IMG/VR virus record: IMGVR_UViG_3300046171_000048
Location: 1-50,335 of that record
DNA from: a virus
DNA length: 50,335 bases
Strand: one strand, 5' to 3'
The first letter of the stretch is position 1. Each line of letters opens with the position of its first letter. Below the pieces are notes generated by a model. The model worked only from the letters and a program-made list of their open reading frames with translations. It did not search any database and had not been told where the DNA came from. Position numbers and translations under genes: made by a program. Shown here in pieces: positions 4,814 to 28,803 of this stretch.

Positions 4814-5109
4814 TGCCAACATATTCTTATAGAAATAAGAAGACTGGAAAAGTCTGGGATGAGTATCTATCGTATGATGATAGGACCAAGCCACTACGAA
4901 ATAAAAATGTAGAGATGGTGATAACTGCACCCAGACTTGCCTTTATAGAAAGAGGTGAACATAAACAACGAGACCAAATGATTCATACAGCTAGACAGGG
5001 AATGAGAGAAAGACAGGCAGAAGAAAAAGCAGGTATTAGAAAAACTCCCGAATGGTTAAAAGAAAAAACAGAAAAACATTTACAAAAGGTCCGCAATGTT
5101 AGTTCCTGA
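4813..5109 (+). CDS. Hypothetical protein, 98 aa (GTG start)
   Basis: Starts with GTG overlapping the Hsp20 stop (TAGTG). The first residues MPTYSYRNKKTGKVWDEYLS resemble the opening of FmdB-type small zinc-ribbon proteins, but no cysteines are present, so metal binding is not expected. The rest is a charged, probably helical region rich in Glu, Arg and Gln. It sits just before the terminase small subunit and overlaps it by 14 bases. Function unknown. Confidence 0.65.
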   Translation: MPTYSYRNKKTGKVWDEYLSYDDRTKPLRNKNVEMVITAPRLAFIERGEHKQRDQMIHTARQGMRERQAEEKAGIRKTPEWLKEKTEKHLQKVRNVSS

Positions 5110-5479
5110 TAATAAAAAAGAAGTAGCTTTAACAGAAAAGCAAGAAACATTTTTAACAGCTTTGTTTGGCGAAGCACAAGGTAATCCTAGAACAGCAGGT
5201 GATATAGCAGGATATGCAGATTATCATCAACCACTAAGAGCCTTAAAAGAAGAAATTATTACAAGAGCAGAAGAACAGTTAGCTGCTTTTGCACCTAGAG
5301 CAAGTATGGGAATGATAAATGCTTTAGATGAAGACGGAAGCCTACCCGGTGCTAATATTAGAATGGAAGCAGCCAAACAAATATTAGATAGAGTAGGATT
5401 ATCTAAAAGAGAAAAATTAGATATAACTGCTAAAGTACAACACGGAGTTTTTATTTTACCACCTAAAGATAATGAGTGA
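5096..5479 (+). CDS. Terminase small subunit (TerS)
   Basis: A 127-residue protein directly upstream of the large terminase. It opens with LTEKQETFLTALFGEAQGNP, a helix-turn-helix type region (RTAGDIAGYADYHQPLRAL), continues with a helical oligomerisation segment containing AANIRMEAAKQILDRVGL-like sequence, and ends in GVFILPP. This layout matches TerS-type DNA-recognition proteins of marine podoviruses. It would bind the packaging site and hand DNA to TerL. It overlaps the previous and next genes by 14 and 8 bases. Confidence 0.75.
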   Translation: MLVPDNKKEVALTEKQETFLTALFGEAQGNPRTAGDIAGYADYHQPLRALKEEIITRAEEQLAAFAPRASMGMINALDEDGSLPGANIRMEAAKQILDRVGLSKREKLDITAKVQHGVFILPPKDNE

Positions 5480-24858: not shown

Positions 24859-25163
24859 TGGTTAGAGATTGGTTTCAAAACGCATTACAAACTTTTAATG
24901 GTGGCGATTGGTATTCTTGGAAAAAAGAAGATAGTGAAGGAAATAAAATTCCTAACGACCAAAGAATGACTTATGCAAATATTGTAGTTATTAAAGAAGG
25001 TGCAACAATACCTAGCGAAGCTGATGTTAATGCAAAAATACAAGAATTAAAAGATTTAGAAACAGCTAAAGAAACAGATGCAACTTCAGGTAAAACTAAG
25101 TTGAAAAATCTAGGTTTAACTGATGATGAAATGCTCTTAACGAAAATAGTCAAACTTATCTAG
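24858..25163 (+). CDS. Chaperone-like protein C, C-terminus possibly altered
   Basis: A 101-residue protein after the C1q-like fibre: aromatic N-terminus (DWFQNALQTFNGGDWYSWKK), then a helical part IQELKDLETAKETDATSGKT and LKNLGLTDDE. The last ten residues look unnatural, and from 25130 an alternative frame carries a clear fibre domain. Either a one-base indel near 25128 hides a fusion, or the original C-terminus was replaced by recombination. Confidence 0.6.
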   Translation: MVRDWFQNALQTFNGGDWYSWKKEDSEGNKIPNDQRMTYANIVVIKEGATIPSEADVNAKIQELKDLETAKETDATSGKTKLKNLGLTDDEMLLTKIVKLI

Positions 25164-25570
25164 CTTACTGTTTTGCAGAAAAAAAAGGCTACTCAAAGTT
25201 TGGTTCCTATACAGGTAATGGTAATGCAGATGGAACATTTTTATATTTGGGTTTTAGACCAAAATTTATAATTATAAAAAGAACAGACACAACAGGAAGT
25301 TGGTTTTTAATAGATTCTGTTAGGGATATTAATACTTTAGGTGCAGCGAACACAAAAGGCTCAGCAGAGGCACAACATCAACAATTATTTGCAGATGCAT
25401 CTGATGCAGAAGCTACTTATAACTCATCAGCAGGAGATTTTTTATCAAATGGTTACAAATTAAAAGGCACAAATGCTAGCACAAATGCAAGTGGTGGAAC
25501 ATTTATTTATTTGGCATTTGCAGAACATCCATTTGTAAGTAGTAAAGGAGTGCCAGTAACGGCAAGATAG
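25130..25570 (+). pseudogene. C-terminal fibre domain fragment without its own start
   Basis: The frame reads NENSQTYLAYCFAEKKGYSK, then TGNGNADGTFLYLGFRPKFI, and ends with SGGTFIYLAFAEHPFV. This Y-AYCFAE ... FSKFGSYTGNG ... GFRP-w--IKR ... IY-AFAE-PF pattern is a C-terminal domain common in tail proteins of marine phages (I recall it as DUF7483). There is no start codon before residue 40 and the N-terminal fibre is missing. It is either fused to 24858-25163 through a frameshift or is the relic of a fibre gene lost by recombination. Confidence 0.6.
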
Positions 25571-25583
25571 GGAGGACAGAAAC

Positions 25584-25625
25584 ATGTGTGAATATTGCAA
25601 TGGTGAATGTGGGCAAGGTTGCTAA
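25584..25625 (+). CDS. Cys-rich micropeptide, 13 aa
   Basis: A 13-residue ORF, MCEYCNGECGQGC, with four cysteines. It has a good ribosome site (GGGAGGA, 25570-25576) and its stop couples to the next ATG (TAATG). It may be a metal-binding peptide or a translational leader for the next gene. Too short to be certain, but a second Cys-rich peptide lies 340 bases downstream. Confidence 0.45.
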   Translation: MCEYCNGECGQGC

Positions 25626-25969
25626 TGAAAAGCGAAAAACCTAAAACACAAAGACTACCAAAAAAGAAACCTCAGGAAGAGGCTTTAAAACAAGCTAAAC
25701 TTAAACAGCTAACTAAGCCTCAACCTGAACCTAAAAAACCTAGGACAGTTGCTAAGACTACTGCTCCTATGAAGAAACGTATGAAACCTATTAGAAGTCC
25801 TATGGTAGAAGCTAATCAAACATCTAAACCTATGTCTCCTAAAATGAGAACAGATGTAGCAGCTAAACCTACTGCAGGTAGAATGACTTCTACAGATGTA
25901 TTTGAGAAAAGAAAGAAAGAAAAGAATCAAGCTATGGTTCGTAAGATGAAACCATTAAGGATTAATTAA
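25625..25969 (+). CDS. Lys/Pro/Met-rich basic protein, 114 aa
   Basis: A 114-residue, highly basic and Pro-rich protein with no hydrophobic core (KPKTQRLPKKKPQEEALKQA, later MKKRMKPIRSPMVEAN). I take the ATG at 25625, coupled to the micropeptide stop, and not an upstream start. Probably disordered and able to bind nucleic acid or acidic partners; an acidic Met/Glu-rich protein is encoded just downstream (26616). Function unknown. Confidence 0.6.
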   Translation: MKSEKPKTQRLPKKKPQEEALKQAKLKQLTKPQPEPKKPRTVAKTTAPMKKRMKPIRSPMVEANQTSKPMSPKMRTDVAAKPTAGRMTSTDVFEKRKKEKNQAMVRKMKPLRIN

Positions 25970-26043
25970 TGTTAGAAAATTGTATTGCATGTGGGTGTGA
26001 CCCTTGTATATGTGATGATGAATGTGATAGTTGTGGTGCGTAG
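25969..26043 (+). CDS. Cys-rich micropeptide, 24 aa
   Basis: A 24-residue ORF containing seven cysteines arranged C-x2-C-x-C-x2-C-x-C-x3-C-x2-C, with acidic residues between. It starts on the previous stop (TAATG) and the next gene starts one base after its stop. The spacing is like metallothionein-type or Fe-S cluster peptides. Binding of Zn, Cu or Fe is inference. Confidence 0.55.
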   Translation: MLENCIACGCDPCICDDECDSCGA

Positions 26044-26044
26044 T

Positions 26045-26671
26045 ATGAAATATTTATTTATAGTTTTATTATTTTTATCTACAAAAATTTTTGCAGCAGA
26101 TACAAATACTGTGTCTAGTACTGTAGTTACAAACAATACACCACCCTACAGCAAATTCTCCATCCGTGGTGGTAAATAATAGTGATATATGCTAAGTCGG
26201 CCTATTCGGGTGCTGTGCAAACTCAAGTGTTAGGTATTAGCACAGGAGTTACAGTAAGGGATTTGAATTGTGAAATGATAAAATTATCTAGGTCATTATA
26301 TGGTATGGGTATGAAAGGTTGCTGCAGTTTCTACATTATGTGCTGACCATAGAATCTTTGACGCAATGTGGATGTCTGCAACTTATTGTCCATTTATGGG
26401 GGCTATAGGTGAAGACGCTAAATCAGGGTGGGAAGCCAATAGACACCTAGTTCCTGCAGGTAGTAAAGTATTTCTATCAAAAGTAGAAGCAGAAAAGAAA
26501 CAAGAAGAATTTACAAAAGAAGTTTTAAGAATAGAAAAAGAAGAACAAAAAAAGATTGAAGAAGAAAAACAAGCATTGATTAATGAATTAAATCAAGGAG
26601 TACACAAAGAAAGAAATGACCAGATTAAAGGAATTACTCTTGGTGGTCTTGCTTTGCTTTTGTTACTCTAG
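26045..26671 (+). CDS. Exported conserved hypothetical protein, frameshifted
   Basis: One gene read in several frames. It opens with a signal peptide (MKYLFIVLLFLSTKIFA, cleavage before AD). Reading then moves near 26142 to TANSPSVVVNNSDIC, near 26190 to KSAYSGAVQTQVLGISTGVT, and near 26320 to VAAVSTLCADHRIFDAMWMS. A charged coiled coil and a hydrophobic C-terminus (GGLALLLLL) follow. I recall similar proteins, with DLNCE--KLS--LY-MGMKVAAV, in marine phages; role unknown. Likely a membrane-anchored periplasmic or virion-associated protein. Confidence 0.65.
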
Positions 26672-28320: not shown

Positions 28321-28803
28321 ATGGCAGAAATAGAATATAAAGGAATTAAAGTAGGTGGCTCAAAGCTACTACTTATTCTACCTCTTATAGGTACACTTAT
28401 TGGTGGACTGTGGGGAGGTTTTGAAGTATATCAACGATACATTATAATGGAAAAAAAGATAAACTCATTTGTAAGTCCTGACCTTTCTGGCTATGATAAA
28501 AGGATAGAATTAATACAACAACAATTAAATATGTTACAAAATGAAATACCAATGATATTAGATGAAGTAAACCTAGTGGCCTCTGTTGCCAAAGAATTAA
28601 AAAATGACCTTAAGAGTGACGTAAGAAGAATTGAAACAATCGTAGAAGACGTAGAAACTAGAGTTAAAGAAGATTCTAGAACTAATGAAAAAGAATTAAA
28701 AGAACTTGTAAAAGAAATAGAACAGGATATGACTGATTTAGAAACAAAAGTAGCAGACACTATACAGAAAACTTTAGCTAATCCTTTAGCAGGTATGAAA
28801 TAA
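28321..28803 (+). CDS. Membrane-anchored coiled-coil protein, 160 aa
   Basis: One transmembrane segment near the N-terminus (LLLILPLIGTLIGGLWGG, about 16-33) followed by about 110 residues of coiled coil (heptads through NEKELKELVKEIEQDMTDLE). The topology is like an inner-membrane spanin or an ejection-related anchor. It is followed, with a one-base overlap, by another membrane coiled-coil protein. The pairing suggests a joint role in lysis or tail-membrane contact, which is inference. Confidence 0.65.
   Translation: MAEIEYKGIKVGGSKLLLILPLIGTLIGGLWGGFEVYQRYIIMEKKINSFVSPDLSGYDKRIELIQQQLNMLQNEIPMILDEVNLVASVAKELKNDLKSDVRRIETIVEDVETRVKEDSRTNEKELKELVKEIEQDMTDLETKVADTIQKTLANPLAGMK

Follow-up and report, generated by a model that had tools for sequence, protein, structure and literature searches.

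Two conserved cysteine-rich microproteins of 13 and 24 residues in a viral contig whose closest annotated relatives are Pelagibacter phages

Introduction

Can reading frames as short as 13 and 24 codons, packed with cysteine, be genuine phage genes, and if so, what might their products do? The question is raised by a 50,335-bp viral record (the window), which carries terminase, portal, major head protein, tail and DnaB-like helicase genes and whose closest annotated DNA is from Pelagibacter phages, such as HTVC115P. An initial annotation described a 13-residue peptide with four Cys and a 24-residue peptide with seven, both coupled by TAATG to neighboring genes, and held that such peptides would be missed by usual gene callers; the sequence bears out this description, and both peptides fall below common length cut-offs. 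We found no account of these phage peptides in the open-access literature. They provide a concrete case, cheap to test, of marine phage proteins that function at 12-27 residues, and possibly link thiol or metal chemistry to the membrane or lysis functions of phages.

Results

The two micro-ORFs (hereafter the 13-mer and the 24-mer) flank the gene for a basic protein (Table 1). Overlapping stop and start codons (TAATG) join the 13-mer to the basic gene and the basic gene to the 24-mer, which ends with TAG, 1 nt from the ATG of the exported-protein gene at 26045. The only strong ribosome site for the basic gene is the one that precedes the 13-mer, and an ORF start at 25607 for this gene is a frame extension only. 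We could assign the basic protein to no family by profile searches, and found no match to it in cultured phages. Cys accounts for 7 of the 24 and 4 of the 13 residues (29-31%); aromatic residues are absent from the 24-mer of the window, although one variable position is F or Y in some relatives, and the 13-mer has a single Tyr. Both micro-ORFs are intact in the window and match their closest relatives. Compared to relatives, the exported gene has single-base insertions (at 26140-26330) and the tail gene before the 13-mer has frame changes (at 25100-25250); these may be contig errors.

Table 1. Positions of features in the window, and of CHC family sites in other contigs (L numbers)
Feature	Position	Strand	Basis or remarks
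13-mer SD-like sequence GGGAGGACA / GGGAGGAC (AGGAGGAC in most relatives)	~25569..25576	+	sequence; GGAGG kept 5' in relatives
13-residue microprotein MCEYCNGECGQGC, 4 Cys	25584..25625	+	23 other viral contigs, 14 nucleotide forms, pN/pS 0.21
Basic 114-aa protein MKSEKPKTQRLPKKK...	25625..25969	+	14 relatives in viral contigs; start overlaps 13-mer stop
24-residue microprotein MLENCIACGCDPCICDDECDSCGA, 7 Cys	25969..26043	+	family in 88 other contigs; two subclasses with pN/pS 0.11
Exported protein gene MKYLFIVLLFLSTKIFAADTNTVSS..., three 1-nt insertions relative to L002	26045..26671	+	L002 alignment; HTVC115P homologue intact
Membrane-anchored coiled-coil protein (context)	28321..28803	+	hydrophobic segment near N-terminus; Pfam matches weak, of coiled-coil type
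CHC family sites	L038 ~1946, L043 ~309, L051 ~2674, L058 ~6301, L076 ~8046, L129 ~763		

We compared the number of short Cys-rich ORFs (ATG start, 10-30 aa, at least 4 Cys, at least 25% Cys) in the window, which has five, to that in 60 dinucleotide shuffles, which had a mean of 0.2 per window and yielded none with seven or more Cys. The three other such ORFs in the window, which fall within larger ORFs (13742) or antisense to them, appear to be artefacts of composition. The stronger and decisive proof, relative to these counts, is conservation, and shuffles and conservation together rule out the reading of the 13-mer and 24-mer as chance ORFs. On this evidence from sequence, both are genuine genes under purifying selection at the protein level, and we infer that they are translated.

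Searching with the C-terminal half of the 24-mer, we matched 98 stretches and recovered the family in 88 other contigs, with the stop codon right after the Ala. A search with the Cys pattern, in which the other C-terminal residues were free, gave 25 stretches, and the matches listed all end with CDSCGA-stop; across the family, the end is CDSCGA, with CDTCGA in two distinct forms. Six Cys are common to the family (C1-x2-C2-xn-C3-x-C4-x3-C5-x2-C6), which divides into subclasses beginning NCIACGC[DEN]PCIC..., ECPACNQDPC[TIV]C..., CPECGCD[DN]CIC..., CPVCGCN..., CCPICGCDKDKC..., CETCGADVCSC... and CPDCGA...C.C..., and which includes longer relatives (43-70 aa) with additional Cys. The near-identical copies (L002, L003, L005) would be little proof without the Cys-pattern matches. 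The two larger subclasses each have a pN/pS of 0.11, and 57 distinct tails together have 0.18; the residues fixed in the search patterns lower these values somewhat. Cys, Asp, Gly and Ala are near-invariant while their codons vary, and AGY (AGT/AGC) and TCN codons are both used for the invariant Ser; thus, selection acts on the peptide, not on the RNA. The initial annotation had proposed that the Cys pattern and reading frames be checked in relatives, and we find the Cys conserved and the frames unbroken.

This family is tightly conserved across many viral contigs, yet absent from the family libraries that we searched: the 24-mer had no significant match in Pfam, PHROGs or NCBIfam, and a PDB profile search returned only insignificant matches to isolated CPxCG knuckles (best E 0.04-0.11). 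Among cultured phages, we obtained no useful match to 24-mers by tblastn (low-complexity filtering may mask matches) and only chance-like ones by nucleotide search, and CDSCGA was absent beside DUF6321 and phrog_20984 homologues in those sampled. We rejected as members L035 and L040, in which CIACGCDPC terminates an ORF of 165-168 aa, and the sole pattern match in a bacterial genome (L138, a Sphingomonas MAG), which we judged to be a chance match in composition. Separately, in Synechococcus phage S-BM3 (L146, 2102-2842), a basic 246-aa protein contains an internal CPVCGCDPCQC that resembles the first half of the 24-mer.

Pattern searches of IMG/VR placed the 13-mer in 23 other viral contigs, as MCEYC[NG]G[EG]CG[QG][GN]C, MCEYCGGGCGGC, MCEYCGGGCRGC, MCECCGGGCGGC and MCECCGGGCGFGC. 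All four Cys are kept in these, but the patterns themselves fixed the four Cys, and conservation is better judged in the relatives reached independently through the basic protein, in which every complete copy retains all four. The pN/pS for ten full-length forms is 0.21, and an in-frame deletion of one residue is tolerated. In most contigs the 13-mer lies 5' of the basic protein; in L023 and L030 it is directly 5' of the exported protein, and contigs L017, L034 and L062-L064 have it without the basic gene. Given these seven contigs, and a 24-mer that mostly occurs without the basic protein, we rejected an obligate three-gene unit. Shorter forms related to the 13-mer occur just before a 24-mer, as MCECGGECVCR (L053, L055) and MCEYCGGECVCR (L068). 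By eye, we noted three consecutive Cys-rich micro-ORFs in L055 (~4990-5140), namely MCKCNEDYDCMCKGKNNV, MCECGGECVCR and a CDSCGA 24-mer, and, in L053, a perfect sigma-70-like promoter (TTGACA-16-TATAAT) immediately 5' of MCECGGECVCR.

Examination of the genes around the 24-mer revealed variety on its 5' side, where we found the basic protein of the window, a DUF6321 basic protein (12 cases; Pfam E 1e-10) and tail-type or exported proteins. On the 3' side, for at least 35 of 52 distinct contexts we predict a membrane segment or signal peptide in the product of the overlapping or abutting gene, compared to 119 of 580 ORFs (21%) in the same loci (odds ratio 8), although the 52 contexts are related and phylogenetically non-independent, such that the enrichment p-value is indicative only. 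Some 24-mers precede basic or other non-membrane proteins. The commonest downstream partner is a phrog_20984-like protein with an N-terminal TM segment and a coiled coil, which also occurs in 39 cultured pelagiphage records; in the window, the gene 3' of the 24-mer encodes an exported protein without functional assignment. We found no 24-mer at the corresponding place in the sampled cultured pelagiphages; thus, the module can dispense with it.

Co-location with lysis genes is clear in L081, where the gene for the motif protein precedes those for a lipoprotein, a TM coiled-coil protein, a GTA_holin_3TM match (E 9e-14) and a Phage_lysozyme match (E 3e-12); it is likely in L054 and L057, which have holin- and lysozyme-like genes near the 24-mer, and is indicated by topology in L078, L080 and L085, while the neighbors in the window are membrane or exported proteins only. 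The labels spanin-like and holin-like rest on topology or on a few Pfam matches. In L078, the single such case in the collection, one protein combines CPACNQDPCAC with a C-terminal TM segment; next to it, a 24-mer overlaps the distinct gene for a TM peptide of ~30 aa.

Discussion

The explanation that we favor, with a probability of about 0.45, is that both peptides are Cys-rich cytoplasmic microproteins and that the 24-mer is a Cys-knuckle accessory, probably zinc-binding, of a late membrane or lysis module. Metal binding is likely from the spacing of the Cys (CxxC, CxC and two CxxCG-like knuckles). The two terminal CxxC(G) knuckles and the central CxC of the 24-mer would bind a soft metal, most likely Zn(II), at the core of its fold, and the peptide would serve the membrane/lysis module as a small accessory, with the next gene of that module translated right after it; the 13-mer would be a smaller Cys4 peptide of similar kind at the junction of the tail and membrane genes. 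A partner may bind at the free C-terminus, as the invariance of CDSCGA there suggests. The frequent place of the 24-mer before membrane or exported genes, the lysis genes of L081 and the L078 fusion speak for this accessory role; the non-membrane proteins after some 24-mers and the lack of the peptide in the sampled cultured pelagiphages speak against it.

The peptides might instead be metallothionein-like buffers that sequester Zn, Cu or Cd released late in infection, or that supply metal, independently of the neighboring genes. The high Cys content, the CxC and CxxC spacing, the lack of aromatics in the window 24-mer, the standing of Cys among the best-kept residues, and the sharing of contigs with another Cys/His-rich family would all fit such a buffer, which we nonetheless consider unlikely. 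The C-terminal D, S, G and A, which the tail search itself fixed and the Cys-pattern search left free, are about as invariant as the Cys and would be unneeded by a simple buffer; since these non-Cys tail residues are constant and the C-terminus is free, a specific partner is favored over bulk metal storage. The 24-mer is present as one copy adjoining membrane genes. The role in metal supply or toxicity envisaged by the initial annotation finds no support in the context: no metal-transport or metal-resistance genes were noticed beside either peptide, and the 24-mer instead adjoins membrane, exported, spanin-like and sometimes holin or endolysin genes.

The 24-mer resembles metallothioneins (Pfam Metallothio) in its high Cys fraction, CxC and CxxC motifs and few aromatics, and the metallothionein-like spacing noted initially holds as a resemblance in Cys spacing, but the phage family has invariant non-Cys residues and the 24-mer matches no family in Pfam, NCBIfam or PHROGs. 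No metallothionein family scored above threshold; the one match, of a 43-aa relative to Metallothio_Euk, was below it (E 0.89; 10 bits compared to a cutoff of 22).

LysW is a zinc ribbon of ~54 aa that carries amino-acid intermediates. It has a CPxCG knuckle like that of the 24-mer (PDB 5k2m and 3wwl, among the best profile matches; E 0.06 and 0.11, not significant), but its C-terminus is unlike that of the 24-mer.

There is also a likeness in form to the C(P)XCG zinc-finger micro-proteins, such as HVO_2753 (PMC11241148), which are also very short with two CxxC(G) knuckles. We found two CxxC(G) motifs in fewer than 70 aa in the window 24-mer (CIACG and CDSCG) and in others (CPECG, CPVCG or CETCG with CDSCG); in the CPACN subclass, N replaces the G of the first knuckle. 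In contrast, the C(P)XCG proteins are archaeal cellular proteins of <70 aa, whereas the phage proteins are mostly 22-29 aa, with an extra CxC and the invariant CDSCGA end, and we detected no significant homology of the 24-mer to solved or curated C(P)XCG members in Pfam, NCBIfam, PHROG or PDB profiles. Among 14 haloarchaeal C(P)XCG micro-proteins, nine bound zinc and five were zinc-free, and AlphaFold2 is reported not to distinguish metal-binding from metal-free members (PMC11241148). The nine favor zinc binding by the phage peptides, and the five are the main caution against it. By analogy, the phage peptides may work like C(P)XCG micro-proteins or metallothioneins, although homology searches placed them in neither group.

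A cytoplasmic thiol or redox partner, in which Cys pairs cycle between thiol and disulfide to signal, or to assist Cys-containing exported proteins or lysis timing, is less probable than a metal buffer. The CxxC pairs in both peptides and the several Cys in adjacent exported proteins are compatible with this role, but we found no match to a thioredoxin-like family, and neither peptide has a signal peptide. Thus, both should remain in the reducing cytoplasm. We consider it very unlikely that the peptides are minor virion components, for instance metal staples of the tail: the position after the tail genes in the window and the late-type operon would suit packaging, but the 24-mer follows many kinds of gene, including those for DUF6321 basic proteins and membrane proteins, rather than one tail gene. 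Least probable of all is that translation matters and the peptide does not (TAATG re-initiation or Cys-codon attenuation), since, in spite of the stop/start coupling of both ORFs and the placement of the ribosome site of the basic gene, constraint is at the protein level with synonymous change free, the ORFs persist where the gene that follows is another one or does not overlap them directly (L017, L034, L062-L064), the RNA folds no better than shuffles (z -0.8 and -0.4), and no + strand terminator was found after the ORF.

For a Cys-knuckle accessory of the membrane/lysis module, parallels are the phage lysis accessory genes (spanins and small holin-associated peptides), which the micro-ORFs resemble in some contigs by their placement and coupling near genes for a lipoprotein, a TM coiled-coil protein, a holin and a lysozyme; they differ in that the 13-mer and 24-mer themselves lack a TM segment, signal peptide or lipobox, except in the L078 fusion. 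A long shot, more speculative than this accessory role, is that marine phages, including SAR11-phage-like ones, have overlooked and independent families of Cys-rich microproteins (13-mer, 24-mer and CHC), of which the CDSCGA peptide regulates the membrane/lysis machinery of the phage in a metal-dependent way. If so, infected cells in the surface ocean could lyse in response to their metal or redox state.

Elsewhere in the window, positions 1024-1659 strongly match phrog_3704 (E 3e-54), annotated as ferredoxin, but we saw no Pfam match and no obvious Fe-S cluster Cys motif there, and this annotation is doubtful; positions 1659-2411 weakly match ATE_C, the C-terminal domain of arginine-tRNA-protein transferase (E 2e-4, below the cut-off). 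The CHC family mentioned above consists of Cys/His-rich proteins of 31-64 aa, for example MDNGICVICGHACHCSHGGSCCIEDCHCGNCEHEIKSEID, which share contigs with the 24-mer and have no significant match in PHROG or NCBIfam; a similar unannotated ORF is present in cultured pelagiphage HTVC023P (L139, 3450-3614).
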